Assembly: GCA_021324295.1 (NCBI GenBank)
Contig: JAJPJJ010000077.1
Span: 1 to 47,651, forward strand
Reading direction: 5' to 3'
DNA: 47,651 bases
From: Bacillota bacterium
Lineage (GTDB): Bacteria; Sysuimicrobiota; Sysuimicrobiia; Sysuimicrobiales; Segetimicrobiaceae
The position numbers were made by a program, and so were the translations under genes. Shown piece after piece: positions 5,120-40,716 of the stretch. The notes under the pieces were generated by a model. That model ran no database searches. It was not told the origin of the DNA and saw only the letters and a program-made list of their open reading frames with translations. Numbering within the stretch: position 1 is the stretch's first letter; the number at the start of each line of letters is the position of its first letter.

Positions 5120-6111
5120 GCAGCACGAGCGGCACGGTGGCGGAGATCCCGGCGGAGCTGAGCCCGGCGCAGCTCGTGGGGATGCTGCGCATGATGCTGC
5201 GGATCCGCCGGTTCGACCAGCGCGCCCTGGAGCTGTACCGCGAGGGGGCGATGCGGGGGACGACCCACCCGTACATCGGGATGGAGGCCGTCGCGGTGGG
5301 GGCGTGCGCGACGCTGCGGCCTCAGGATCGGATCACGAGCACGCACCGCGGCCACGGCCACTGCCTAGCGAAGGGCGGGGACCCGCGCCTGATGATGGCC
5401 GAGCTGCTCGGACGGGCGACCGGCTATTGCAAGGGCAAGGGCGGGTCGATGCACATCGCGGACGTGGACGCCGGCATCCTCGGCGCGAACGGAATCGTGG
5501 GCGGCGGCATCGGGCTGGCCACCGGGGCGGCGCTCGCGGCCCGGCTCGCCCGGCGCGACGACGTGAGCCTGTGCTTCTTCGGGGACGGCGCGCTCAACCA
5601 GGGGATCCTGCACGAAGCCGCGAACCTCGCCGCGATCTGGAAGCTCCCGGTCGTCTACGTCTGCGAGAACAACCAGTACGCGATGTCCGCGCGCGCGGAT
5701 GCGTTTACCTCGGTCCCCGACCCGGCGGTGCGCGCCGCCGCGTACGGCTTCCCGGGCGCAAGCTGCGACGGGATGGACGTCCTGGACGTGTACCGGGCGG
5801 TCGGCGCCGCCGTGGCGCGGGCCCGCGCCGGTGACGGCCCGTCGCTCGTCGTGTGCGTCACGTACCGGTTCATGGGGCACCACGTGGGCGATCCGCTGAA
5901 CTACCGGGACAAGGCGGAGGTCGAGCGGTGGCGGGCGCGCGACCCGATCGAGCGGTTCCGGCGGGTGCTCGTCGCGCAGCGGATCCTCACGCCGGCGGAG
6001 GCGGACGCGCTGGGGGCCGAGGTGGAGCGGGAGATCGAGGAGGCGGTCGCGTTCGCCAAGGCGAGCCCGGAGCCGGAGGCGAGCGCGCTCGAGGAGGACG
6101 TGTACGCATGA
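5116..6111 (+). CDS. 2-oxoacid (pyruvate/acetoin-type) dehydrogenase E1 component, alpha subunit
   Basis: A 331-residue thiamine diphosphate enzyme subunit of the PdhA/AcoA type. It decarboxylates a 2-oxoacid (or acetoin) and passes the acyl group to the lipoyl arm of E2. The TPP-binding motif is visible from [10 protein letters not shown] to CENNQYAMS, with the phosphorylation-loop-like segment [11 protein letters not shown] later on. The start overlaps the upstream RAM gene by four bases, and its own stop overlaps the E1 beta start (ATGA at 6108-6111). The order alpha, beta, E2 is standard for these complexes; no lipoamide dehydrogenase (E3) gene is present. Pyruvate, acetoin and branched-chain 2-oxoacids cannot be told apart from the sequence with certainty. 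Confidence 0.88.
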
Positions 6112-7133
6112 GCCATCCGGGGATCGCAACACCTCCCGCGGCCCCGGCCGGGACGCGCGTGCTCACCTACGCCGAAGCCCTCAACGAGGCGCTCCGGGAG
6201 GAGATGCGGCGCGATCCGCGGGTGTTTGTGATGGGCGAGGACGTCGCCGTCTGAGGCGGCGGCGGGGTCTTCGGGGTGACGCGCGGCCTCGTCGAGGAGT
6301 TCGGGCCGGAGCGCGTGCGGGACACGCCGATCTCCGAGGAGGCTATCGCCGCGCTCGGCGTGGGCGCGGCGATGGCCGGCGCCCGGCCGGTCGTGGAGTT
6401 CATGTACGCGGACTTCATGGCGCTCGCGATGGAGCCGATCGTCAACCAGGCGGCCAAGATCCGGTACATGTTCGGCGGGAAGGCGCGGGTCCCCGTCGTG
6501 TTCCGGGCGCAGGAGGGCGCCGGCCGGGGGAACGCGGCGCAGCACTCGCAGTCGCTCGAAGCGTGGTTCTGCCACATCCCGGGCCTCAAGGTCGTCACCC
6601 CCAGCACGCCGGCAGACGCCAAGGGGCTGCTCGTCACCGCGATCCGCGACGACAACCCGGTCGTGTTCCTCGAGCACAAGCTGCTGTACAACACGAAGGG
6701 GCCCGTGCCGGCCGGGGAGCACGCCGTGCCGTTCGGCGCCGCGGACATCAAGCGCGCCGGCCGCCATGTGACGTGCGTGGGGATCCACACGATGGTCCAC
6801 AAGGCGCTCGCGGCCGCGGAGACGCTCGCGCGGGAGGGGATCGAGCTGGAGGTCGTGGATCCCCGCACGCTCGTGCCGCTCGACATCGAGACGATCCTCG
6901 CCTCGGTCCGGAAGACGGGGCGGCTGCTCGTCACGCACGAGGCGTACGAGCGGGGAGGGGTCGCCGGCGAGATCATCGCGCAGGTCGTCGCGGCGGCGTT
7001 CGATTGGCTCGACGCGCCGCCGGTGCGGCTGTGCGGCAGGAACGTGCCGATCCCCTACAACGGCGCGCTGGAGATGGCCGCGCTGCCGCAGGCGGACGAC
7101 ATCGTCGTCGCCGCGCGCCAGCTCGTGGCTTAG
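6108..7133 (+). pseudogene. 2-oxoacid dehydrogenase E1 component, beta subunit, interrupted by an in-frame TGA
   Basis: The frame from ATG 6108 to TAG 7133 encodes a normal-length E1 beta (342 codons with the stop) but codon 49 (6252-6254) is TGA. Before it the chain reads [14 protein letters not shown] and right after it GGGGVFGVTRGLVEEFG, so homology continues in the same frame with no base gained or lost. In relatives a tryptophan or tyrosine commonly sits near this point, so a single TGG-to-TGA change would explain it. Downstream motifs are intact (RVRDTPISEEAI, MYADFMALAMEPIVNQAAKI, HSQSLEAWFCHIPGLKVVTP). A GTG at 6276 could restart translation but would yield 285 residues lacking the first TPP-site loop. 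Possible causes are a sequencing error, a real nonsense mutation or stop readthrough; other genes here use TGA as a true stop, so general recoding is unlikely. Confidence 0.85.
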
Positions 7134-28140: not shown

Positions 28141-29826
28141 TCAGGAGATGGGCCGCGGGGATATCGGCAGTGCCAGACCGTGGCGGCGCGCGGCGTCGAT
28201 GGCCTGAGGGTACCCCGCGTCCGCGTGCCGGACGATCCCGATCCCCGGGTCGGTCGTGAGCACGCGCTCGAGCCGCCGGGCGGCGGCCGGCGTGCCGTCG
28301 GCGACGGCGACCATGCCGGCGTGGATCGAGTACCCGATCCCCACGCCGCCGCCGTGGTGCACCGCCACCCACGTCGCGCCCCCGACCGCGTTGAGGAGCG
28401 CGTTCAAGATCGGCCAGTCGGCGATCGCGTCGCTGCCGTCGGCCATCGCCTCCGTCTCCCGGTACGGTGACGCCACGGAGCCGGTGTCCAGATGATCCCG
28501 GCCGATCACGATCGGCGCCTGGAGATGCCCGCGGGCGACCATCTCGTTGATCGCGAGGCCGAACCGGGCGCGCTCGCCGTAGCCGAGCCAGCACACGCGC
28601 GCGGGGAGCCCCTGGAACGGCACGCGCTCCCCCGCGAGCCGGATCCAGCGGGTCAGGGTCTCCTGCTCGGGGAAGAGGCGCAGCACGACCTCGTCGGTCT
28701 TCCGGATGTCCTCGGGCTCGCCGGAGAGCGCGACCCACCGGAACGGGCCGCGTCCCTCGCAGAACAGCGGCCGGACGTACGCCGGCACGAACCCCGGGAA
28801 CGCGAACGCGTCCGCCACCCCCGCGTCCCGGGCCTGCGCGCGGATGTTGTTGCCGTAGTCAAAGGCGACGGCTCCCTGCCGGTAGAGGGCGAGCATCGCC
28901 TCGACGTGCCGGGCCACCGACGCCCGGGCGCGCGCGACGTACGCCTGCGGGTCGCGACGCCGCAGCGCCGCCGCCTCGGACGCGGAGAGGCCCGCGGGGA
29001 TGTACCCCTCGAGCAGGTCGTGCGCCGACGTCTGATCGGTCACGACGTCCACGCGCACGCCGCGGCGGACGATCTCCCGGTAGACCTCCGACGCGTTGCC
29101 CAGCAGGGCGATCGAGCGGGGGCGGCCCTCCCGGACCGCTTGGTGGGCCAGGTGGAGCGCGGCATCGAGGCTCTGCGTCGTCTCATCGACCCACCCGGCG
29201 CGCGCCCGCCGCTCGATGCGCGCGGGATCCGCCTCCACGACGAGGCCCACGCCCTCGTTCATCGTGATCGCGAGCGGCTGCGCCCCGCCCATCCCGCCCA
29301 GCCCGGCCGTGAGGACGAAGCGGCCCCGCAGGCTCCCCCCGAAGTGCCGCCGGGCGACGGCCGCGAACGTCTCGTAGGTGCCCTGGATGATCCCCTGCGT
29401 GCCGATGTAGATCCACGAGCCCGCGGTCATCTGGCCGTACATCGTGAGCCCCAGCGCTTCGAGCCGGCGGAACTCGTCCCAGGTGGCCCACGCGGGTACG
29501 AGCATCGCGTTGCTGATCAGCACCCGCGGCGCATCCGCGTGCGACCGGAACACCCCCACGGGCTTGCCCGACTGGACGAGCAACGTCTCGTCGTCCCCCA
29601 GCGCGCGCAGGCATCGTACGATGGCGTCGAAGCAGTCCCAGTTGCGCGCCGCCCGGCCGGTGCCGCCGTAGACGATCAGGTCCTCGGGCTTCTCCGCGAC
29701 CTCGGGGTCGAGGTTGTTCATCAGCATCCGCAGCGCCGCCTCCTGCTGCCAGCCGCGGCAGGAGAGGGCGGTGCCCCGCGGGGCCCGGATGGCTCTCGTT
29801 GCATCGCTTCTTCCCGCGTGGTCCAA
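28141..29826 (-). CDS. hutU: Urocanate hydratase
   Basis: A 561-residue NAD+-dependent urocanase that converts urocanate to imidazolone-propionate, the second step of histidine breakdown. Signatures: [14 protein letters not shown] near 51-64, [27 protein letters not shown] and the active-site cysteine C412 in [15 protein letters not shown]. Length is standard. The predicted start is TTG 29826; an AGGAGGAGG site about eight bases upstream supports it, and the conserved family start ([20 protein letters not shown]) begins shortly after. It ends the hut operon and is 78 bases from the ABC permease. Its GC content is very high, unlike the genes just upstream of it. No hutI, hutG or hutF is in the window. 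Confidence 0.95.
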
Positions 29827-29904: not shown

Positions 29905-30594
29905 TCATGCATGATGAAGGGAGAAGCGCTTCTCGACCATGCTGACCATCTGTTGTAAGATGATCACCATCACGACGTAGAAGATTGCTGCGAGTGAGTA
30001 GGCTACCAGGTTCTGGAATGTGGCCGCGGCGGCCAGTTGCGCATCCCGCATCAGCTCGGTGACTCCGATCACGGATGCCAGTGATGTCCCCTTGAGCACT
30101 GTGATGAACTCGTTCCCCAACGGCGCGAACGCCACCCTGAGGGATTGCGGGATAATGACGCGCCGCATGGTGAGCCAGTAGGACATGCCGAGAGAACGCG
30201 CGGCTTCGGTCTGCTCGGGGGGAATGGACTGGATGCTCGCCCGAATGATTTCCGTGGAATAGGCGCCACTGTTGAGCGCGAACGCCACTACCGCGGCGAG
30301 GATCCTGTTGTTCAGGGGCGACAGCAGATCCATGAGGAATCGTATTCCGAGGTCGTGGGCCCAGCTCGGAAGCCCGAAGTACACGACGTAGAGGAGGACG
30401 AGGGGGGGTACACCGCGGAAGATAGCCACGTAGCCGCTGGCGAGGGTCCTCACTGCGGGTCTCTCTGACACGCGCCCGAGAGCGCCGACAAGCCCGATGG
30501 CGACGGACCCGAGCATGCTTGTGAGCGTAAGCCCCATGCCAACGACGGCGCCGATCGTGTAGAAGGGAAGATAGTCGCGCGCGAACTGGAGCAT
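29905..30594 (-). CDS. Polar amino-acid ABC transporter permease (HisM/GlnP type)
   Basis: A 229-residue inner-membrane permease of the His/Glu/Gln family. It shows the family N-terminal pattern GMGLTLTSMLGSVAIGLVGA, the FRGVPPLVLLYVVYFGLP loop and the EAA motif EQTEAARSLGMSYWLTMRRV IIPQ region. A single permease could work as a homodimer. It starts eight bases after the ATPase stop. GC content is moderate compared with the flanking hutU. With its binding protein and ATPase it should import a polar amino acid or an amino-acid-like compound. Confidence 0.92.
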   Translation of the reverse strand: MLQFARDYLPFYTIGAVVGMGLTLTSMLGSVAIGLVGALGRVSERPAVRTLASGYVAIFRGVPPLVLLYVVYFGLPSWAHDLGIRFLMDLLSPLNNRILAAVVAFALNSGAYSTEIIRASIQSIPPEQTEAARSLGMSYWLTMRRVIIPQSLRVAFAPLGNEFITVLKGTSLASVIGVTELMRDAQLAAAATFQNLVAYSLAAIFYVVMVIILQQMVSMVEKRFSLHHA

Positions 30595-30602
30595 CGTGGA
30601 TT

Positions 30603-31469
30603 CTACGCCAACGACATGCGCCGTAAGAAGGATTCAATCCGCGGAGTCTGCGGCCTCGTGAAAAACTCCCTGGCACCTTGGTCCACGACGATGGTGCCAC
30701 CCTCCATGAACGCCACGCGGTCCGCAACGTCGCGCGCAAAGGACATCTCGTGCGTCACGACAATCATCGTCATGCCCTGCTGCGCGAGTCTCCGCATGAC
30801 CGCGAGCACTTCGCCGACCAGTTCGGGATCTAACGCGGACGTGACCTCGTCGAACAGCATGACCTCGGGCTGCATACAGAGCGCCCGTGCGATTGCCACA
30901 CGCTGTTGTTGTCCTCCGGACAGCTGGTCGGGATAGGCGGTTACTTTGTCGGCGAGGCCCACCATGTTCAAGACCTCGTAAGCGCGGGTCAGCGCTTCGC
31001 GCTTTGGAACCCTCAGCACGTAGAGCGGTCCCTCTAACAGGTTTCCAAGAACCGTGCGGTGCCGAAAGAGGTTGAACCGCTGGAAGACCATGCCGATCCT
31101 CTTACGCACCTGGTTGACGTTGTGTTCGGAGTCTCGGACGAGCCGACCTCGCTCCTCCCGGTATCCGACCAGTTGGCCGTTGACATACACTCGTCCCGAG
31201 TCGTAGGGTACAAGGAAATTTATGCAGCGGAGCAGCGTCGTCTTGCCGGAGCCACTGGGCCCCACGATCGCAACCGTTTCACCGCGGGCGACCTTGAGGT
31301 TCACGTGGGACAGCGCCGTGGTGGCACCGAAGACCTTGCCGACGTCTATCAGCTCTACGACTGCGCCGTGGGCGCCCTGCGAGGGTGTGGTGGATAAGGC
31401 TGGGGCCGAGAGGACCGCACGGTCAGCGTTCTCTTCTCGGCCCGAGCGCACGAAGGACTCGTTCGGCAT
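30603..31469 (-). CDS. Polar amino-acid ABC transporter ATP-binding protein (GlnQ/HisP type)
   Basis: A 288-residue ABC ATPase: Walker A GPSGSGKTTLLRCINFL, Q loop MVFQRFNLFRHRTV, signature QLSGGQQQRVAIARAL, Walker B VMLFDEVTSALDPEL and H loop IVVTHEMSFARDVADRV. The first 37 or so residues form an extension not usual in GlnQ, before the domain begins at VVELIDVGKVFG; no better internal start codon is available, so it may be a real tail. It begins three bases after the binding-protein stop. Confidence 0.92.
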   Translation of the reverse strand: MPNESFVRSGREENADRAVLSAPALSTTPSQGAHGAVVELIDVGKVFGATTALSHVNLKVARGETVAIVGPSGSGKTTLLRCINFLVPYDSGRVYVNGQLVGYREERGRLVRDSEHNVNQVRKRIGMVFQRFNLFRHRTVLGNLLEGPLYVLRVPKREALTRAYEVLNMVGLADKVTAYPDQLSGGQQQRVAIARALCMQPEVMLFDEVTSALDPELVGEVLAVMRRLAQQGMTMIVVTHEMSFARDVADRVAFMEGGTIVVDQGAREFFTRPQTPRIESFLRRMSLA

Positions 31470-31472
31470 GCA

Positions 31473-32273
31473 CTACATCGACGGGATTAGCTTGATGTCC
31501 CCGAACCACTTCTTGTTGATCTTGTCGAGAGTGCCGTCCTTGATCATCGCCTCGATCGTGTCGTTGACAGCCGCGAGGAGCGCCGTATCCTGCTTTCTCA
31601 GAGCAGCCCCGATGAGCGCCGGTTCATCGGTGAGTTTTTGCCCGGTGACGCGCAGCTTCCCCTTGTACAGCTCCTTGGTGGTATAACCCGCACCGAGACT
31701 CTCCATGACGACCACGTCGAGCCGGCCGAGAACGAGGTCGTTGAACTCGTCAGCGACTGTATTATAGGTGGTGGGTTTGATGCCACCGATCTTCTCGACT
31801 GCGGCCGCCGCCGACGTGTTCACCTGGACGCCTACCCTGAGCTTCGCCAGATCGGCACGGCCCGGATTGAAGCTGGGCTTGTCCGTGCGCACCACCGTTG
31901 TGATCGTTTGTTCCATGTATGGCCGTGAAAACGCCACGACTTCCTTCCGCTTATCGGTGATCACCATGTTGGTGATCGCATCTATTTTGCCGCCGGTCAG
32001 CGCAGGAATGATCCCGTCCCATGCGACGCCCTGGTACTGAAGAGGCACCCCCAGGCGCTTAGCAAGTTCTGTGGCGAAATCCACATCGTAGCCTATCAAC
32101 TTTCCCGCCTTGTCGGCGAACGTGATGGGCCGGAAGTCGGGATCCGCGCCGACGCGTAGCACTTTGAGAGGCACCTTGGTCGCGCCTGGCAGGATCTGGG
32201 GTACCGACAGCGTCAACAAAAGGCAGGTCCCAAGGCCCACAGTGATCGTGAGCCATCGCATCATCCGTCTCAT
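31473..32273 (-). CDS. Polar amino-acid ABC transporter substrate-binding protein (SBP_bac_3)
   Basis: A 266-residue binding protein. A signal peptide covers about 1-30 (hydrophobic LTITVGLGTCLLLTLSVP). The mature domain starts LKVLRVGADPDFRPITFADK and has the family segments GYDVDFATELAKRLGV, WDGIIPALTGGKIDAI and TLDKINKKWFGD. These bind polar amino acids and related compounds. Two features differ from strict arginine/histidine binders, but the ligand cannot be read from sequence. Given the neighbours (histidine genes, HyuAB) an imidazole or cyclised amino-acid derivative is a reasonable candidate. GGGAGG lies six bases before the ATG. Confidence 0.9.
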   Translation of the reverse strand: MRRMMRWLTITVGLGTCLLLTLSVPQILPGATKVPLKVLRVGADPDFRPITFADKAGKLIGYDVDFATELAKRLGVPLQYQGVAWDGIIPALTGGKIDAITNMVITDKRKEVVAFSRPYMEQTITTVVRTDKPSFNPGRADLAKLRVGVQVNTSAAAAVEKIGGIKPTTYNTVADEFNDLVLGRLDVVVMESLGAGYTTKELYKGKLRVTGQKLTDEPALIGAALRKQDTALLAAVNDTIEAMIKDGTLDKINKKWFGDIKLIPSM

Positions 32274-32285
32274 GTATCTACCTCC

Positions 32286-34370
32286 CTAGCGAGATACCGT
32301 TGCCGTCCCCTGGTGATTGTCCCGGGCGGGCCGCACGTGGACCAGCAGGTCTAAGCCATCTTCCATCACCTCCACCGTGTCTCCTGTCGATAGCACGATC
32401 GTCGAATCATATTGCTCAACGATGGCCGGGCCTTCAAGGATCTGGCCTGAACAGAGGGAATCGCGTTGATGGACCGGGCAGAGGGCCGGCTCCGGGTCCG
32501 AGAGCCAGACGAGGCGATGCTGAGGCGCCGCCCCGGCCGGCCGCGCATGCTGCTTCGCTTCGGCGATGTGGTCGGGTGTAGGCCTGCCGTAGACGATGGT
32601 GGCTCGAATGTTGACGACCTCGATTGTGTCGGTGCGCGCGGAATGGCCGTAGCGACGCTCATGCTCGAGGTGGAACGCTTCGGCGGCCCGCGCCACGCCG
32701 GGGGCGCTGAGTTCATCGACTGCGACGGTAAGTGTGTGCGATTGTCCGCGGTAACGCAGGTCCACAGCTCTGTCTATCCGCAGGGGAGCTGCATGCAGTC
32801 CGTCCGATGCCACGCGCGCACCGAGCCCGCCAACGAGTCGATCGAATACCGCTGCTAGCTGCGACACGTCAATCTCGTTCCACGTCCGAAACCATGTCAG
32901 GTAGCCGGAGTAGCTGATGTCTGACGTCAGGATGCCATACGCGGACCATACGCCCGGATAGCGCGGAATGAGGACGCGTGGAACCTCCAGGGACCGGGCG
33001 ACATCTAGCGCGTGAAGAGGTCCTGCTCCGCCGAAGGCGATAAGGGTGAGCCCTCGGGGATCGTGTCCTCGCTCGACGGAGATGGCGCGAACAGCCCGCA
33101 CGATATTTGCGGTGACTACTTCGAGGATTCCCTGGGCTGCTCTGGCCCAGGTGAGGCCGAGGGGCCGGCCGAGTTGTTCCTCTATTCCCCTCGTCGCGGC
33201 GTCGCGGTCAATGACGAAATTCCCGCCCAGCATCGCGTTGGCACCGATGTGGCCGAGGGCTACGTGTGCGTCCGTGACCGTGGGGCGCGTTCCGCCTCGC
33301 AGGTAGCAAATTGGACCGGGATCGGCGCCGGCACTCAGCGGCCCTACGCGCAGGAGGCCAGTGGGGTCGATATATGCAACGGACCCTCCGCCGGCCCCTA
33401 CGGTCTCTACTTCGACGGAAGGAAGGGCGACCGCGTATCCTCCGACGGTGCGCTCATCTGTGTAGGGGAGGGCACCACCTTGTAGGAGCGCGACGTCCGT
33501 GCTTGTCCCACCGACGTCTAGGGTCAAGGCATCGCGCAATCCATGCCGCGTCGCTAAGCGAAGCCCGCCGATGACCCCGCCCGCGGGGCCGGACATGATG
33601 CACCTCACCGGGTACCGGCGAGCCTCTTGAAGGGTGAGGCACCCTCCTTCGGATCCCATGATGTAAACGCGCCGAACCCCCCGGTCCAGCAGCAACTTGA
33701 TACTTTCGATGAAGCGGTCGATCACCAGGGTCGTGGCGGCGTTTATGGCGGTCGTGCTCGTGCGCTCGTATTCGCGAAACACCGGAAGAACCTCGGACGA
33801 TAGAGAGACTGGGACCGCCAGCTCTTGGGCCAGGATTCCCCGCACGGTTTGTTCGTGCGTGGGATTGGCGAACGCGAAGAGGAGGCTGACGGCGACAGCC
33901 TGAACGTCTGCGTCACGAAGGGCCGTAGCGGCGGCTACGACGCTGTCCACATCCAGTGGGCACAGGACTTGCCCGTCGGCGTCGACGCGCTCCCTGACCT
34001 CCAGCCTCAAATGGCGGGGCACGAGGGGAGCCGGCCGGCGCTTCTGCAGATCGTATGGCGCCGGCCGCTCCATCCGGGCGATTTCCAGGACGTCTCTGAA
34101 GCCCTGGGTTGTTATCAGCCCTGTCCGCGCGAGTGTGCCCTGCAGGAGCGCGTTAGTGACCACCGTGGTGCCGATGACGATCGTGTCGATTTCTCCAATG
34201 TTGGCGCCAAACTGCTCAGTAAGCTGCTCAATAGCCTTGAGGAGGCTTTGCTCACGTCCCGCCAACTCGTTGGGCAGTTTCAATACCGCTAGTTCATGGG
34301 TCTCGGCGTCACACATGATAACGTCGATGAACGTCCCGCCCACGTCGATGGCCGCGTGTAGCCTCCCCAT
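32286..34370 (-). CDS. hyuA: Hydantoinase/5-oxoprolinase family subunit A (ATP-binding)
   Basis: A 694-residue subunit of the ATP-dependent N-methylhydantoinase, acetone carboxylase and 5-oxoprolinase family. The actin-like ATP-binding motifs are present: AIDVGGTFIDVIM (about 7-19), TIVIGTTVVTNALLQG (63-78), MSGPAGGVIGG (269-279) and LTLDVGGTSTDVALL (292-306), plus VGAGGGSVAYID. The enzyme phosphorylates the carbonyl of a lactam or cyclic imide so that HyuB can hydrolyse it. It overlaps the hyuB stop by one base (TGATG), so the subunits are translationally coupled, and the ABC binding protein follows 12 bases later. Substrate within the family is not decided by sequence: 5-oxoproline, hydantoins, or another lactam. 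Confidence 0.92.
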   Translation of the reverse strand: MGRLHAAIDVGGTFIDVIMCDAETHELAVLKLPNELAGREQSLLKAIEQLTEQFGANIGEIDTIVIGTTVVTNALLQGTLARTGLITTQGFRDVLEIARMERPAPYDLQKRRPAPLVPRHLRLEVRERVDADGQVLCPLDVDSVVAAATALRDADVQAVAVSLLFAFANPTHEQTVRGILAQELAVPVSLSSEVLPVFREYERTSTTAINAATTLVIDRFIESIKLLLDRGVRRVYIMGSEGGCLTLQEARRYPVRCIMSGPAGGVIGGLRLATRHGLRDALTLDVGGTSTDVALLQGGALPYTDERTVGGYAVALPSVEVETVGAGGGSVAYIDPTGLLRVGPLSAGADPGPICYLRGGTRPTVTDAHVALGHIGANAMLGGNFVIDRDAATRGIEEQLGRPLGLTWARAAQGILEVVTANIVRAVRAISVERGHDPRGLTLIAFGGAGPLHALDVARSLEVPRVLIPRYPGVWSAYGILTSDISYSGYLTWFRTWNEIDVSQLAAVFDRLVGGLGARVASDGLHAAPLRIDRAVDLRYRGQSHTLTVAVDELSAPGVARAAEAFHLEHERRYGHSARTDTIEVVNIRATIVYGRPTPDHIAEAKQHARPAGAAPQHRLVWLSDPEPALCPVHQRDSLCSGQILEGPAIVEQYDSTIVLSTGDTVEVMEDGLDLLVHVRPARDNHQGTATVSR

Positions 34371-36088
34371 CAGGCGCGCTCTCCACGTCTCACGTACGGG
34401 GCCTCCGAACCTGCACGCGGCTCGTGAGTTGGCTCGCCGGAAGCGGACCGCACGTAACCATTGACAATGTCGGATTCGACGAGGTCCGATCCCCGCGCCT
34501 CGGGCGGACCGAAGCCTCCCCCGCCGGCCGTCTCAAGTATGACGAGGTCTCCGGGCTGTGCATCGTAGTGCATGAACGCGTTGACGGTGGTCGCGTGCCC
34601 GCTGGGGGAGACTATCCGTATGCGGGTCGGTGCACCATCGCAACCGCCTCGGAGTCCCATGGGGGCCTTACGGCTCATGCTCACCTGAAACGAGCACGTG
34701 GCTGGCGCCAGGAAACGAAATGAACGCCGGATCCCCAGCCCGCCGCGGAATCGACCAGAGCCCCCTGAGCCTTCCACCAAGCCGTATTCCTCAATCCTGA
34801 TCGGTAGGATCATTTCGAGAGCCTCGACCGGCGTATCGTGCAAGTTGGAGACAGGGGGCATTGCCGCGTTTTCGCCGTCGCCCGATGCGCTGGCGCCGAA
34901 GCCGCCGCCGATCGCTTCGCCATACGCATACAGCTCCCGTGTCCGAGGGTTGAGACCGCCGAATGAGAACACGCCGCCCCCTCCCGAGTCGGCAATGACG
35001 GCGTCGGGTATTACAGCGGCAAACGCGCGCATCAGCGCCTCGAATGTGTGATAGGAGACTTGGGTCGCAGCGGAGACCGCGGCGGGATAGTTGGGGTTGA
35101 GGATGGTGCCCTCGGGGACGATCATCCGGACAGGGCGATATAGGCCGCCGTTCGGCGGGATGCCTCCACCGAGCACGACCCGCAGCGCCATGAACACCGA
35201 CGCGTACGTATTCGAAAGGCAGGAATTGAAAGGACCGCGGCACTGGGGCGATGTGCCGGTGAAATCCACGATGATGCCTTGAAGTTGTTTGCGGATCGTG
35301 ACTTTGATCGGGAACATAGCCGTGCCATAGTCGGCCACGGATTCTCCTTGCCACTCGCCGTCGGGGAGGGCCTGGAGCCGCGTTCGCATGGCTTGCTCGG
35401 ACAGATCCAGGATGCGGGAGACAGCTTCGATCAGCCCATCGGGGTGATAGCGCTGCCCCAGCTCGTCGATGCGTCGCTGTGCGAGACGAACCGTCGCGAT
35501 CTGCGCTCTGAGATCGGCGATCCGTTCGTGCGGCGTTCGCGAATTTGCCGCGATTAGCCTCAGGACGTCGTCGATGATCTCCCATTTTCTCGAGAGCCGG
35601 ATCGGCGGCACCCGCAGCCCTTCCTGGAAGATCTCCGTCGATGTTGCCGGCATGCTCCTCGGGGAAGCCCCGCCGACGTCGTTGTGGTGAGCCATGCTTG
35701 CAGCGAACCCCACCAGCTTGTCTCCCAGGAACAGCGGGCCGGCCACGATGAAGTCGGGTAAGTGGTTGCCCCCGTAGTAGGGATCGTTGACCACGTAAGT
35801 CTCGCCCGGTTCCATTCGCTCCGGGGCGAACTGCCCGAGGATGTGCCCCAGGGCGTATGGCATGACGCCGAGGTGGATCGGGATATGCTCTGCTTGCACC
35901 GCCATTTCACCCCGAGGCGTGTAGATAGAGCACGAGCAGTCCCTTCGTTCCTTGATATTGGGTGAGTGGCTGGAGCGCACGAGAGCCTCGGCCATTTCCT
36001 CGCATACCGAGAGGAGGCTGTTGCGAACGAGTTCGAGCACGATCGGGTCCGACGCCGCACCAGCAGCGTTGTTGTCGCGTGTCGTCAT
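34370..36088 (-). CDS. hyuB: Hydantoinase/5-oxoprolinase family subunit B
   Basis: A 572-residue partner of HyuA that carries out the hydrolytic half-reaction of ATP-dependent ring opening. Family sequence is clear: LELVRNSLLSVCEEMAEALV, SHSPNIKERRDCSCSIY, VQAEHIPIHLGVMP, YVVNDPYYGGNHLPDFI, DFTGTSPQCRGPFNS and the late GGSGRFRGGLGI motif. Length is standard. It starts five bases after the DUF3830 gene stop. GC content is near 55-60%, lower than the hut genes. Confidence 0.92.
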   Translation of the reverse strand: MTTRDNNAAGAASDPIVLELVRNSLLSVCEEMAEALVRSSHSPNIKERRDCSCSIYTPRGEMAVQAEHIPIHLGVMPYALGHILGQFAPERMEPGETYVVNDPYYGGNHLPDFIVAGPLFLGDKLVGFAASMAHHNDVGGASPRSMPATSTEIFQEGLRVPPIRLSRKWEIIDDVLRLIAANSRTPHERIADLRAQIATVRLAQRRIDELGQRYHPDGLIEAVSRILDLSEQAMRTRLQALPDGEWQGESVADYGTAMFPIKVTIRKQLQGIIVDFTGTSPQCRGPFNSCLSNTYASVFMALRVVLGGGIPPNGGLYRPVRMIVPEGTILNPNYPAAVSAATQVSYHTFEALMRAFAAVIPDAVIADSGGGGVFSFGGLNPRTRELYAYGEAIGGGFGASASGDGENAAMPPVSNLHDTPVEALEMILPIRIEEYGLVEGSGGSGRFRGGLGIRRSFRFLAPATCSFQVSMSRKAPMGLRGGCDGAPTRIRIVSPSGHATTVNAFMHYDAQPGDLVILETAGGGGFGPPEARGSDLVESDIVNGYVRSASGEPTHEPRAGSEAPYVRRGERA

Positions 36089-36093
36089 GCCAA

Positions 36094-36543
36094 CTAGGCC
36101 TTCTCGTATCGCACGAGGATGATCTGCTTGGCGAGCGGGTTCAGGGTCAAGTCACCGTAAGGCGCCATCAAGTTTTGCCACGCGCGCTGGCCGACGCGAC
36201 GCAACGTGGGCCAGTGCTCCCTCGGGACGTGGCCCCATACGCTGATTCCCTCGGGCTCGGTGAGCGGTCCGTAGGCGACCACGACGTTCTGTGAGCCCGG
36301 TCCGTACGCGCAATCGCCCGGCCCCATTTGCGTGAAGAGGCGCACGTTCTCACGAGCCAATGTAAACACCGGGGAAGTCGCGAACATCATGAAGCCCGAG
36401 ATGAGAGCATGCCCTTGAACAGACTCCCAGGGCAGTGCATCCCAAAGGAGGTTGCAGATAGTCGGCGCCCTATCGTCCAATAGCTGGATACTGGCGCTGG
36501 CATCCAAGCTCGGCCACGTCATCCGGATGACTCTTGCGGCCAT
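36094..36543 (-). CDS. DUF3830 cyclophilin-like protein, possible cucumopine-synthase N-terminal half
   Basis: A 149-residue protein with the DUF3830/cyclophilin-like pattern: an N-terminal strand with charged start, then LLDDRAPTICNLLWDALPWE (the acidic-loop to helix signature of the fold), a middle strand set SGFMMFATSPVF, and QMGPGDCAYGPGSQNVVVAYG. Cyclophilin-like domains of this family make up the front half of cucumopine synthase, which condenses histidine with 2-oxoglutarate; the helical gene just upstream would be the back half. GGAGGG lies six bases before the ATG. Stand-alone DUF3830 proteins have no assigned reaction. The fold call is good; the catalytic role is inference. Confidence 0.75.
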   Translation of the reverse strand: MAARVIRMTWPSLDASASIQLLDDRAPTICNLLWDALPWESVQGHALISGFMMFATSPVFTLARENVRLFTQMGPGDCAYGPGSQNVVVAYGPLTEPEGISVWGHVPREHWPTLRRVGQRAWQNLMAPYGDLTLNPLAKQIILVRYEKA

Positions 36544-36591
36544 TGTTCACCCTCCGTATTGTGAGGCCGTTGCGCCCATAATGGACTCCCA

Positions 36592-37134
36592 CTACTTCGT
36601 CATGTAAGGGACGGGAGTCCACGGGCCTCGCGCTGCTTGATCCAATACGGTTTGCGCTTCGGCTTGCGTCTTTTGGGTGAGGTGGGCTCCAAGCCCCCAC
36701 GGAAAGACATGCTCCGTCCAGAGATGGAGACGCGCTCCGTAGCCCTTGATTGCCTGTGTAAGTCGAATGAAGGACTCCCGATCTGGAAGCTCGTCGAGTA
36801 GGGCGAAGTATTTTTGGTACAGGTCTCCTAACTCGTGGAGTCCCACGTAGTTCAGGAAGCCAGCGCGATAGACGAAGTGTGCTTTGGCCATCTTCTTGAG
36901 ATGCTCGAGTGTAAAAGAGGGGTCCTGTGCCAGGTTGAGGATAGCGGTGGTCGCGTAGTAGGCGAGGCCGCGGATCTCACTTTGTGCGAAGAGGAGCGTT
37001 GTGAACACCTGCCCGTACGATCCGGCCCCCGAATCGATGACACCGTTCCTAAGGCGCACCAAGTCGTCCGGCTCTGTCAGCCAGATGGCTTTGGTGCGCT
37101 CCTTAATGAGCGCTTCCAACTCCTGCCACGTCAT
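36592..37134 (-). CDS. Helical-bundle protein resembling the cucumopine synthase C-terminal domain
   Basis: A 180-residue, mostly helical protein. Segments such as SGAGSYGQVFTTLLFAQSEI, RGLAYYATTAILNLA and ARLHLWTEHVFPWGLG resemble what I recall of the cucumopine synthase C-terminal helical bundle (LHAW-H-FPWG pattern). Together with the DUF3830 protein (149 + 180 residues) it would match the size of an intact cucumopine or mikimopine synthase, split into two genes. I choose ATG 37134 because AAGGGGGG sits six bases upstream; an earlier in-frame start inside the hutH end is possible. No signal peptide. Identification is from memory of a pattern, so moderate. Confidence 0.6.
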   Translation of the reverse strand: MTWQELEALIKERTKAIWLTEPDDLVRLRNGVIDSGAGSYGQVFTTLLFAQSEIRGLAYYATTAILNLAQDPSFTLEHLKKMAKAHFVYRAGFLNYVGLHELGDLYQKYFALLDELPDRESFIRLTQAIKGYGARLHLWTEHVFPWGLGAHLTQKTQAEAQTVLDQAARGPWTPVPYMTK

Positions 37135-37171
37135 TCGAGGCCCCCCTTTCCTTCGCATGTTCGTTGCGTGG

Positions 37172-38683
37172 CTACGGCGATACGCATGCATGCTCCGTGC
37201 TCTGGGTTATCCTTCCGGACAGCACCAGCTTGAGGGCGTTGTCCAGGTCGTAGGCTACCACGCGATCATCGGCCAGGGGAGGCACAACCTCTCGAACCGC
37301 GCGGTATGCGGCCGCTGTGCCTCGGCCGAGCACCCCTGTGCTCAAGTCTACCGCCTGACACGCGACGACGAGTTCAATAGCCAGCACCTGCTGGCTGTGC
37401 CGCAGCACCCGCATGGCCTTGCGTGCCGCGGTTGCGCCCATACTGACGTGATCTTCTTGATTCGCAGAGGTGGGGATCGAGTCCACGCTCGCCGGGTGGC
37501 ACAGGACTTTGTTTTCGGAGACGAGCGCGGCGGCCGTGTACTGCGCGAGCATGTAGCCGGAGTTGAGCCCTCCGTTGGCCGTCAGGAACGCGGGGAGGCC
37601 GGAGAGCTTGGGGTTGACGAGGCGCTCCGTGCGACGCTCGCTGATGCTGGCCAGAGCCGCTACGGCGAGCGCCGCGTAGTCCAGCGCGACGGCCAGCGGC
37701 TGGCCGTGGAAGTTGCCGCCCGAGAGGACTTCACCCTCGGCGGGGAAGAGCAGCGGGTTGTCGGTGGCGCTGTTGACCTCGATCGCGAGCACGTCGCGGA
37801 GGTGCGCCAGCGCCTGGCGGGCGGCGCCGTGGACCTGGGGCATACACCGCAGCGAGTAGGCGTCCTGGACCCTGTGGTAGCCCCGGCGCACGATGCGGGT
37901 GCTCCCCTCGAGCAGGCGACGCAGATGCTCCGCGCTCGCGACCTGGCCGGGATGGGGGCGGGCGCGGTGGAGGAGCGGGTGGAGGGGCTCGTCGGTCGCG
38001 CAGAGGGCCTCGAGCGTCAGCGCGCCGGCCACATCCGCCAGCGCCACCAAGCGCTCCGCGTCGAGCAGGAACAACGCGCCCAGCGCGGTCATGAACTGCG
38101 TGCCGTTGATGAGGGCGATCCCTTCCTTCGCCTCGAGCACGAGCGGTACCAGGCCGGCGCGCGCCAGCGCTTCTCCTCCAGGTAGCCGCTCGCCCCGATA
38201 CACCGCCTCTCCCTCGCCCATCACCACGAGCGCCAGGTGCGCGAGCGGCGCGAGGTCCCCGCTCGCGCCCAGCGAGCCCTGCTCTGGGACGATGGGGTGC
38301 ACCTGTCGGTTGAGCATCTCGAGCAGGGTATCGATCACAACGGGCCGGATGCCCGAGTACCCGCCCGCCAGCGCGTTGGCCCGCAGCAGGAGCATCGCCC
38401 GCACGGCGCGCTCGTCCACCGGATCCCCGACCCCTGCGGCATGAGAGCGGACGATGTTGCGCTGGAGCCGGCGCGCATCGGACGCCGAGATGACCTGGGT
38501 GCACAGGTCCCCCACACCGGTCGACACGGCGTAGACGGGCTGCCGGCCCGCGAGGATGGCGTCCACCATCTCGTGGGCGGCCTGCACCCGCTCGCGCGCC
38601 GCCGGGGAGAGGCGTACGAGCGTGCCATCGGCGACCTCCTGGATCGCCTCGATCGTCAGCGTCTGCCCGTCGATCTCCAGCAC
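37172..38683 (-). CDS. hutH: Histidine ammonia-lyase
   Basis: A 503-residue lyase that turns histidine into urocanate and ammonia. The self-made MIO cofactor arises from A140-S141-G142 in EQGSLGASGDLAPLAHL. Other hallmarks are YAVSTGVGDL near 51-60, NGTQFMTA, YSLRCMPQVHGAAR, SGGNFHGQPLA and the late SVDSIPTSANQEDHVSMG. The GTG start has GGAGAG upstream; its leader contains a terminator and HutP-type sites, so expression should rise with histidine. The 3' third looks lower in GC than the rest, next to the low-GC cassette. It is followed 37 bases later by the helical-bundle gene. Confidence 0.96.
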   Translation of the reverse strand: MLEIDGQTLTIEAIQEVADGTLVRLSPAARERVQAAHEMVDAILAGRQPVYAVSTGVGDLCTQVISASDARRLQRNIVRSHAAGVGDPVDERAVRAMLLLRANALAGGYSGIRPVVIDTLLEMLNRQVHPIVPEQGSLGASGDLAPLAHLALVVMGEGEAVYRGERLPGGEALARAGLVPLVLEAKEGIALINGTQFMTALGALFLLDAERLVALADVAGALTLEALCATDEPLHPLLHRARPHPGQVASAEHLRRLLEGSTRIVRRGYHRVQDAYSLRCMPQVHGAARQALAHLRDVLAIEVNSATDNPLLFPAEGEVLSGGNFHGQPLAVALDYAALAVAALASISERRTERLVNPKLSGLPAFLTANGGLNSGYMLAQYTAAALVSENKVLCHPASVDSIPTSANQEDHVSMGATAARKAMRVLRHSQQVLAIELVVACQAVDLSTGVLGRGTAAAYRAVREVVPPLADDRVVAYDLDNALKLVLSGRITQSTEHACVSP

Positions 38684-38697
38684 CGTGCTATCTCTCC

Positions 38698-38733
38698 AAA
38701 GAGAAAGGAGCCACGCGCATACGGCGTGGCTCC
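38698..38733 (-). terminator. Intrinsic terminator in the hutH leader (HutP attenuator)
   Basis: On the minus strand GGAGCCACGC (38733-38724) pairs perfectly with GCGTGGCTCC (38716-38707) around a seven-base loop and is followed by TTTCTCTTT. It lies just before the hutH ribosome binding site. An upstream GTGGCT (38758-38753) can pair with AGCCAC (38731-38726) inside the stem, offering a competing structure. This is the place where HutP blocks termination in Bacillus. Confidence 0.8.
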
Positions 38734-38773
38734 CTGTCGTCCCTCGTCTCTAAGCCACTGCCCGTCTATTCTG
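38734..38773 (-). promoter_or_regulatory. Cluster of NAG triplets, candidate HutP-binding RNA site
   Basis: Reading the transcript, triplets occur as CAG (38773-71), UAG (38768-66), CAG (38760-58), UAG (38752-50), GAG (38745-43) and CAG (38736-34), mostly spaced by 4-6 bases. HutP of Bacillus subtilis binds UAG/NAG triplets with about four-base spacing next to the hut terminator. The cluster ends directly at the terminator stem and hutP itself is the preceding gene. Confidence 0.65.
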
Positions 38774-38834: not shown

Positions 38835-39107
38835 CTATGTGAGGTACTCCTGGAGGCTCAGATCGTCCCAGAGGCTCCTCGGGGGCTCCGCGACCTCGGG
38901 GACCCCCGGGTCCCGCGGCTTCGTGGCGTCGATCCCTAGCGTCGTGCCGAGGAGGCGGTTGTCCCGGCTGACCGCGGGCCACGCCGCGTGCCCCGTGGGA
39001 GCGTCGCGCCTGCGCGTGATGGCCGTGACGTCAAAAACCGGCGTGTGCGTCGGAGGGGCGCGGCACAACCAGCAGTCCCCGAACGGTCCATCTGCCTCGC
39101 TTTCCTG
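38835..39107 (-). pseudogene. Relic of a UbiD-family decarboxylase
   Basis: Directly after the hutP stop, in the same frame, the minus strand reads ADGPFGD, then PPTHTPVFDVTAITRRRDA, which matches the mid-protein UbiD pattern (GPFG...PVFxVTAITHRRDxIY). After a jump it continues RDNRLLGTTLGIDATKPRDP and LWDDLSLQEYLT, matching UbiD C-terminal sequence (GIDATxP...). The N-terminal domain and roughly 150 central residues are missing and there is no start codon or ribosome binding site, so this is a decayed remnant. UbiD enzymes decarboxylate aromatic acids with prenyl-FMN. It sits between hutP and the hutH leader, inside the transcribed leader region. Confidence 0.7.
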
Positions 39108-39536
39108 CTACAGGTGCGAGACGCCGAGCCCGACCACCTCGTGCTCGTTGCCTTTGATCGGCTGGCCGATCGTCCCGTAGAGCGCCACCGCGAGCCACGT
39201 CGTGTGGTCGCCCGGCATCCGCGGCCCGCGCACGAGCGCGAAGCGCAGCGCGACGGTGCGCAGGACGCTTCCCAGGGCAAGCTGCCCCCGCCCCACGCCG
39301 TGCAGCGCCTCGATCGTGGCGTGGTACAGGGCATGCTCTTCCGCGTACTCCGTGTTGATGAACCCCTCGCGCCGCGCGGCGGTCTCGATGGCGGCGATGA
39401 CCTTCTGGAGGTCCATCGTGCCGACGTGGCCCGTGACCACCCGGAACCCCTTCGCGGCCGCGATCACCGGGGCGGCGTCGTCCGCCAGCACCGCGAGGAC
39501 GGCCACCCGACCGATCGTATCGGTTCTGACCCGCAT
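39108..39536 (-). CDS. hutP: HutP, histidine-responsive RNA-binding antiterminator
   Basis: A 142-residue HutP. It matches the Bacillus protein along its whole length: GTMDLQKVIAAIETAARREG, EEHALYHATIEALHGVGRGQ (H68, H72 and H79 in the histidine/Mg2+ site), LGSVLRTVALRFALVRG, ALYGTIGQPIKGNEHEVVGL. HutP forms a hexamer that, with L-histidine and Mg2+, binds NAG triplets in the nascent RNA and prevents termination ahead of hutH. Here such triplets and a terminator lie downstream, before hutH. The ATG at 39536 was chosen because the conserved core starts RTDTIGRVAVLAVLAD right after it; GAGG lies upstream. As in B. subtilis, hutP precedes hutH. Confidence 0.93.
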   Translation of the reverse strand: MRVRTDTIGRVAVLAVLADDAAPVIAAAKGFRVVTGHVGTMDLQKVIAAIETAARREGFINTEYAEEHALYHATIEALHGVGRGQLALGSVLRTVALRFALVRGPRMPGDHTTWLAVALYGTIGQPIKGNEHEVVGLGVSHL

Positions 39537-39615
39537 CGAACGCCCTCGTCCTCCCCCCGCCGACGCCCGCGCGGGCCCCGCGAGCGTCCACACGGGCCGC
39601 GGCGGCGCGGGGCCA

Positions 39616-40716
39616 TCACGCCTCCCGTAGCACGGCTGAGAGCGCCTCCACCAGCCGGGCGTTGTCCTCCGGTGTCCCGATCGTGATGCGGGCCCACGTC
39701 GGGAGCCGCCACAGCGTGCCCGGCCGGACGATCACCCCGCGCTCCATGAGACGCTCGGCCAGCTGGTCGGCGGGCCGTCCGAGGTCGACCAGGATGAAGT
39801 TGGCCTGGCTCGGCAGGTGCCGCAGCCCCAGCTCCGTCAGCGCGCGGGAGAGAAATGCCTTCCCGGCCAGGTTGTTCTGGAACGCCGCCCACACGTACCC
39901 CTCGTCATCCAGGACGGCTTCGGCCGCAGCCTGCGCGAGCCGGTCGACCGGGAAGGGCTCGCGGACCCGATCCAGGCAGGCGATGAGCTCGGGGGCGGCG
40001 ACCGCGTAGCCGACGCGGAGGCCGGCCAGGCCGTAGATCTTGGACAAGGTCCGCAGGACCAGGAGGTTGGGGTGCCGGCGGAGGAGAGCGATCGTATCCG
40101 GGAACTCCGGATCCTCGACCCACTCGGCGTACGCCTCGTCCACGACGACGAGCGTGTCGCGACCCACCATGCGGAGAAGCGTCTCCATCTCGTCGTGGGA
40201 CAGGATCGTGCCCGTGGGGTTGTTGGGGTTACAGACGATCACCACCTTGGCGCCCGCGGCGGCGGCCGCCATCGCCGGGACATCGAACCTCCAGTCGCGC
40301 AGCGGCACCTCAACCGGGGTGGCGCCCATCAGCAAGGCGAGGGACGGGTACGCGGTGTAGCTGGGGGCGCCGAGGATGCAGCGGTCGCCCGGATCGAGGA
40401 ACGCGAGCCCGATGCACGTCAGCACGTTGTCCGCGCCGTTGGAGATCATCAACTGATCGGCTGCGACCCCGAGGCGGGCCGCCATCCGGCGGCGGAGCCG
40501 GGTGCACCCCGGGTCGGGGTAGTGGTGGACTCGCTCGAGCGCGGAGACCACCGCGTCTCTGACCCGAGGCGAGACGCCGAGCGGGTTCTCGTTGCTGCCG
40601 AGCTTCGTGACCTGCCCGACGCCGTAGCGCTCGGCGACTTCCTCGGCGGAACGGCCGGGGATGTACGGCTCGAGCGCCGCCAGGGCCCTGCGCGCGAGAG
40701 GATGGCACTCGCTCAC
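39616..40716 (-). CDS. hisC: Histidinol-phosphate aminotransferase-type PLP enzyme
   Basis: A 366-residue fold-type I aminotransferase of the HisC group. Recognisable parts: KLGSNENPLGVSPRVRDAV, HHYPDPGCTRLRRRMAARLG, VCNPNNPTGTILS, VVDEAYAEWVEDPEFPD and the PLP-lysine motif LRTLSKIYGLAGLRVGYA (K236). HisC makes histidinol phosphate in histidine synthesis; paralogs act on aromatic amino acids and imidazole-pyruvate. Its place between an HTH regulator and hutP is unusual for a biosynthetic gene. The GTG start has AAGGAG six bases upstream. No other his genes are present. Confidence 0.85.
   Translation of the reverse strand: MSECHPLARRALAALEPYIPGRSAEEVAERYGVGQVTKLGSNENPLGVSPRVRDAVVSALERVHHYPDPGCTRLRRRMAARLGVAADQLMISNGADNVLTCIGLAFLDPGDRCILGAPSYTAYPSLALLMGATPVEVPLRDWRFDVPAMAAAAAGAKVVIVCNPNNPTGTILSHDEMETLLRMVGRDTLVVVDEAYAEWVEDPEFPDTIALLRRHPNLLVLRTLSKIYGLAGLRVGYAVAAPELIACLDRVREPFPVDRLAQAAAEAVLDDEGYVWAAFQNNLAGKAFLSRALTELGLRHLPSQANFILVDLGRPADQLAERLMERGVIVRPGTLWRLPTWARITIGTPEDNARLVEALSAVLREA

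Follow-up and report, generated by a model that had tools for sequence, protein, structure and literature searches.

The stretch between hutP and hutH in the window (the whole 47,651-nucleotide piece of DNA that was analysed) very probably carries a HutP-type transcription attenuator, in which HutP, with histidine and Mg2+, would hold an antiterminator hairpin and so switch on the operon from hutH to hutU. Antitermination by HutP, a textbook mechanism, has been examined almost exclusively in Bacillus subtilis. The copy described here looks intact, belongs to an uncultured phylum distant from Bacillus and would govern more target genes than the classic hut operon. Because the window shares the Bacillus anatomy, and relatives carry a second copy before the same transporter genes, we propose that the HutP system reaches beyond both Bacillus and the classic operon.

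At the sequence level, the case consists of an intrinsic terminator, a competing hairpin that is conserved and covaries, an adjacent HutP and a second site in sister genomes. The first-pass annotation had already suggested a HutP-type attenuator outside Bacillus, and this idea is now supported by the HutP protein itself, by a layout common to nearly all related leaders, by covariation and by a model built from Bacillota only. HutP would presumably bind the window RNA in a histidine- and Mg2+-dependent way.

HutP and the leader of hutH

The gene upstream of the leader, hutP (39593..39108, minus strand), encodes an antiterminator protein of 161 aa, whose conserved part begins at about residue 23. 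Its identity, claimed in the first-pass annotation, was confirmed: the protein scored 168.7 bits against the NCBIfam equivalog NF002838 (cut-off 155) and matched Pfam HutP PF09021 (E 1.2e-24) and the HutP structures 1wmq and 1vea in the PDB (E 3e-40). It also shares 55% identity with HutP of B. subtilis in our alignment A1, in which the B. subtilis sequence agrees with the PDB chain. Residues E55, T56, H73, H77, E81, R88, E137 and H138 of the B. subtilis protein, which we take to be metal-, histidine- or RNA-binding, are all conserved in this alignment. On the same strand, 22 nt upstream of hutP, lies hisC (39616-40716, minus; histidinol-phosphate aminotransferase), a biosynthetic-type gene heading a catabolic run.

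Downstream, hutH (38683..37172, minus), encoding histidine ammonia-lyase (TIGR01225, 681 bits), starts with GTG 14 nt after the terminator tail. The leader between both genes is long (424 nt). In frame after the hutP stop, at 38836-39107 (minus), we observed a possible remnant of a UbiD-family decarboxylase, whose peptide (...AVSRDNRLLGTTLGIDATKPRD...SLQEYLT, then stop) matches Pfam UbiD with E 3e-4, under the curated cut-off. Such a fragment would explain the length of the leader.

An intrinsic terminator lies between hutP and hutH at 38733-38698 (minus), in agreement with the perfect 10-bp stem and T-run described in the first reading of this DNA. The hairpin (38733..38707) has 10 perfect pairs, formed by GGAGCCACGC and GCGTGGCTCC, and a 7-nt loop; directly 3' of the stem follows the T-rich tail TTTCTCTTT (38706..38698), a run broken by two C, which counts against the attenuator reading. 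Folded alone, the terminator reaches -22.3 kcal/mol (z -5.2), and it is the strongest of 10 terminator-like sites within 28-41.5 kb.

A competing GTGGCT/AGCCAC pairing, also proposed earlier, was borne out and extends to seven pairs: GTGGCTT (38758-38752) pairs with GAGCCAC (38732-38726), forming a predicted antiterminator hairpin (38758..38726, minus; -9.8 kcal/mol) around the 19-nt loop AGAGACGAGGGACGACAGG (38751..38733). As GAGCCAC is the terminator's own 5' arm, both structures are mutually exclusive. The terminator outweighs the antiterminator, as it does in Bacillus (-27 versus -10.1 kcal/mol), and thus a protein would be needed to flip the switch.

From the AG positions of related 19-nt loops, this loop is the putative HutP binding site. 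Six NAG triplets had been reported to end at the stem, and all six are present on the minus strand (CAG 38773, TAG 38768, CAG 38760, TAG 38752, GAG 38745 and CAG 38736), together with an additional, overlapping GAG at 38750. The conserved register is instead that of the loop triplets, namely GAG at 38750-48, an in-register GGG at 38743-41 beside GAG at 38745-43, and CAG at 38736-34; the triplets located 5' of the loop are outside the element conserved in relatives. Three NAG triplets therefore lie inside the loop (GAG 38750, GAG 38745 and CAG 38736), with spacings of 2 and 6 nt rather than 4 nt. Since some Bacillota sites likewise deviate from it, the exact 4-nt spacing is not strictly defining.

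The 60 nt located 5' of the stem contain 10 AG dinucleotides. On average a 60-nt segment has 2.8, and only 0.006% of those on the minus strand reach 10. When these 60 nt were shuffled preserving dinucleotides, none of 20,000 shuffles gave an equally good hairpin under the strict geometry, and 0.3% passed when the criterion was relaxed. The combination of the hairpin with an overlapping terminator occurs at this sole site in the 47.6 kb, both strands included.

Related leaders and HutP-type elements in other genomes

When genome contigs were searched, the HutP sequence of the window used singly found no relative, and a HutP alignment found 236. We took 80 HutP loci, 69 of which have hutH directly downstream. 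The alignment of leaders in relatives, a check named in the first-pass annotation, revealed the same anatomy in 68 of these 69: a short arm, a NAG loop of mostly 19 (19-24) nt and a second arm, which in most of them begins a visible terminator. The remaining leader (L028) shows a close variant of this layout, with 3 pairs. For a few leaders (L022, L033, L045 and L049) the automatic choice of the best hairpin was wrong, and these were judged by eye. A typical Bacillus element reads GCCC-atAGatcttAGacgatAGg-GGGC, while deep Clostridia use different arms (GGCTC-acAGccatcAGttgacAGg-GAGCT in L010 and CAAACCC-acAGacgacAGgcAGcAGa-GGGTTTG in L012). The latter locus, from a Dethiobacter MAG, has two elements, before hutP itself (~6000-6030) and before hutH (6592-6624), the second with no obvious T-run.

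Among 30 distinct sequences with a 19-nt loop, both sides change in five of the six pairs, giving a covariation score of 0.381; shuffling lowered it to 0.213, and slid versions did not exceed 0.175. Compensatory changes are seen directly: the third pair changes from GC to AU, and the fifth and sixth pairs from CG to UA. The percentage of paired positions is biased upward, as only elements with 4 or more pairs and with AG at two positions of the loop were extracted. A scan with Rfam 15 of the window and five loci, B. spizizenii and other hut loci included, gave no match at the gathering score. Thus, our analysis provides a conserved, covarying RNA consensus that is absent from Rfam, and the alignment could seed an Rfam family.

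In B. subtilis, a second cluster of three NAG triplets is located ~20 nt away (PMC7430163). Among 69 leaders counted, 56 show at most 2 AG within 45 nt downstream of site I. In the window this segment contains 4, of which some belong to the terminator arm and to the hutH ribosome-binding site. No second cluster could be placed in the window leader, whose other NAG triplets are upstream, in no conserved register.

We then consider the model R1, built from Bacillota only. In an unfiltered search of both strands of the window (95 kb of strand), its top match was 38757-38727 (minus), full length and gapless, with 13.2 bits and a weak E of 0.43; the best-ranked position is thus the predicted one. 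Over the whole genome from which the window comes, a draft in 129 contigs from an uncultured soil bacterium, R1 gave nothing at E <= 10. R1 alone being too weak at genome scale, a sequence pattern was used instead. Whole-genome searches in 21 HutP-bearing genomes returned matches that nearly all precede hutH, and the element is found before hutH even where hutP is not directly upstream (L023, L051, L055, L085 and, more weakly, L009). One exception, in a Clostridia MAG (L011, 6993-7023), is a HutP-type element with a terminator before a gene that by eye resembles a branched-chain-type ABC permease, possibly another transporter target away from hutH. A further model match before a panB-like gene (L131) was rejected as chance, because this terminator-like hairpin has an incomplete loop.

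In the phylum of the window, 4 of 43 genomes encode HutP (G000, G026, G027 and G038). Exact matches to the pattern GGCTYNNAGNNNNNAGNNNNNAGRGRGCY occur, among these 43 genomes, only in G026 and G027, two in each: one copy lies between hutP and hutH, and the other precedes an ABC transporter operon located on another contig (G026:C16:20416-20444(-) and G027:C27:8180-8208(-)). Like the window element, both transporter elements have a near-identical sequence (GGCTTAGAGAC...AGGGAGCC), a 19-nt loop and their own overlapping terminator, and the arms in G027 are the same as those of the window. In contrast to the window, all three triplets are in register, and the elements precede a transporter instead of hutH, so that HutP would act on them in trans. 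These are apparent HutP sites in trans before a transporter. G028, from the same genus and lacking hutP, has no exact match to the pattern. One-mismatch matches in the hutP-less genomes G001, G017, G023 and G032 were discarded, being no commoner than those of a reversed control pattern. On the hutP contig of G038 no HutP element was found; in that genome a Rossmann-type oxidoreductase gene follows hutP by ~20 nt and is cut by the contig end (L008, 6657-7377).

These distributions bear on whether the structure could be a plain constitutive terminator between hutP and hutH, with NAG triplets there by coincidence. In favour of this are the strength of the terminator, the frequency of purine-rich stretches in leaders rich in GC and the middle triplet lying out of register, but hairpin and loop recur with covariation in nearly all hutP-hutH leaders, both in Bacillota and in the sister genomes. 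Moreover, exact pattern matches follow the presence of hutP within the phylum, and the strict geometry arises in random 60-nt pieces of the window at a rate of only 5e-5. We consider this explanation improbable.

The middle triplet raises another alternative. In all 39 elements with a 19-nt loop, AG occupies positions 3-4 and 17-18 of the loop, as the selection demanded, and in 38 of the 39 it also occupies positions 10-11, which were not part of the selection; the window, with GGG, is the sole exception. This GGG may be a real variant, a sign of decay or an assembly error. A decayed site, with the middle triplet mutated, a gene fragment in the leader and hutH no longer under HutP control, would account for the GGG, the 424-nt leader with its possible UbiD remnant and the imperfect T-run. 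However, a GAG lies two bases from the GGG, the middle triplet is also shifted in some Bacillota loops (L027, L039 and L021) and HutP itself is intact. In addition, the 7-bp antiterminator arms and the perfect terminator are intact and mutually complementary, which drift would have broken. There is, in our view, little chance that the site has decayed.

Mainly translational control, in which a hairpin would hide the hutH ribosome-binding site until relieved by HutP, is scarcely credible: a small GGAGAG hairpin follows the terminator in the predicted fold and the terminator tail runs into the Shine-Dalgarno region, but what competes in the relatives is the terminator arms and not the ribosome-binding site, and the distance from terminator to hutH varies from ~20 to > 400 nt.

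The operon downstream of the predicted attenuator

The predicted attenuator precedes a run of nine genes on one strand (38683-28141), separated by gaps of at most ~80 nt or overlapping. After hutH come genes for a cucumopine-synthase C-terminal-domain protein (37191..36592; PF18631, 2.4e-35) and for its probable partner, a DUF3830-like protein (36543..36094; PF12903, 1.2e-5, with 25.7 bits just under the cut-off of 26). They are followed by hydantoinase B/oxoprolinase-like (36088..34370; PF02538, 4e-169) and hydantoinase A-like (34370..32286; PF01968, 2e-82, and PF05378, 5e-52) genes, and by an amino-acid ABC transporter comprising a substrate-binding protein (32273..31473; PF00497, 2e-41), an ATPase (31469..30603; PF00005, 2e-34) and a permease (30594..29905; PF00528, 3e-28). 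The final gene is hutU, encoding urocanate hydratase (29826..28141; TIGR01228, 943 bits). All are on the minus strand.

Between the genes from hutH to hutU, no strong match to a terminator or promoter was found on this strand, and we infer that the operon is read through from the first to the last. The control of the whole cassette by HutP and histidine gains indirect support from the tight spacing of the nine genes and from the sister transporter, which has its own element elsewhere. The binding protein encoded behind the G026 element is 63% identical to the substrate-binding protein of the window, and a sister transporter with its own HutP-type element supports the window's transporter responding to the same signal. 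A shared origin of the hydantoinase genes found beside the sister transporter was set aside; since hydantoinase B is only 31% identical, only the transporter is taken as a shared target.

Although hutU is present in this operon, no imidazolonepropionase gene (hutI) scored above the cut-off in genomes G000, G026 and G027. The hydantoinase A/B pair could replace HutI, acting on imidazolone- or hydantoin-propionate. The cucumopine-synthase C-domain and DUF3830-like proteins are encoded by two separate genes (36094-37191, minus), and relatives of the former, 30-38% identical, are found on Agrobacterium and Rhizobium plasmids and in Paraburkholderia, where the gene adjoins hisG and is near hisC. 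Among the 44 genomes searched, only that of the window carries this gene. One idea is that the cucumopine-like step of the cassette yields histidine; the HutP-attenuator label is independent of whether this is so.

We offer a tentative model for this phylum: HutP might control a small regulon instead of a single operon, acting in trans on a dedicated amino-acid transporter in the sister genomes. Here the operon that it switches on might serve an imidazole opine, either cucumopine-like or the lactam of such a compound, and histidine freed from the opine might be the signal. The proposed attenuator ties an unusual cucumopine-synthase-like/hydantoinase operon to a testable histidine signal, which helps in guessing its substrate.

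The proposed switch and known antiterminators

In our model, when histidine is absent, RNA polymerase reading through hutP would halt at the 10-bp terminator, before hutH. With histidine and Mg2+, HutP would bind the competing hairpin at the NAG triplets of its 19-nt loop, and the antiterminator held in this way would sequester the 5' arm of the terminator. Transcription would then enter hutH and continue through the cucumopine-synthase-like pair, the genes for hydantoinase B and A, those of the ABC transporter and hutU.

This class of mechanism is already known for HutP (reviewed in PMC7430163), and the hut antiterminator RNA is the subject of Oda et al. 2004, as cited in PMC12456014. The window resembles the B. 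subtilis hut attenuator in having hutP upstream, a terminator before hutH, hutH and hutU downstream, and a hairpin with a 19-nt NAG loop that shares the terminator's 5' arm. It differs in its arms (GGCTT/GAGCC rather than GCCC/GGGC), in the middle triplet being out of register and in its terminator loop, where a second NAG cluster is not clearly seen. Moreover, the operon adds the cucumopine-synthase-like genes, hydantoinase A/B and the amino-acid ABC transporter, and hutI is not recognisable in this genome. The antiterminators of the BglG/SacY/LicT type also stabilise an antiterminator hairpin overlapping a terminator, but they belong to another protein family, and their RNA target is a structured one and not a series of NAG repeats (PMC8934654).
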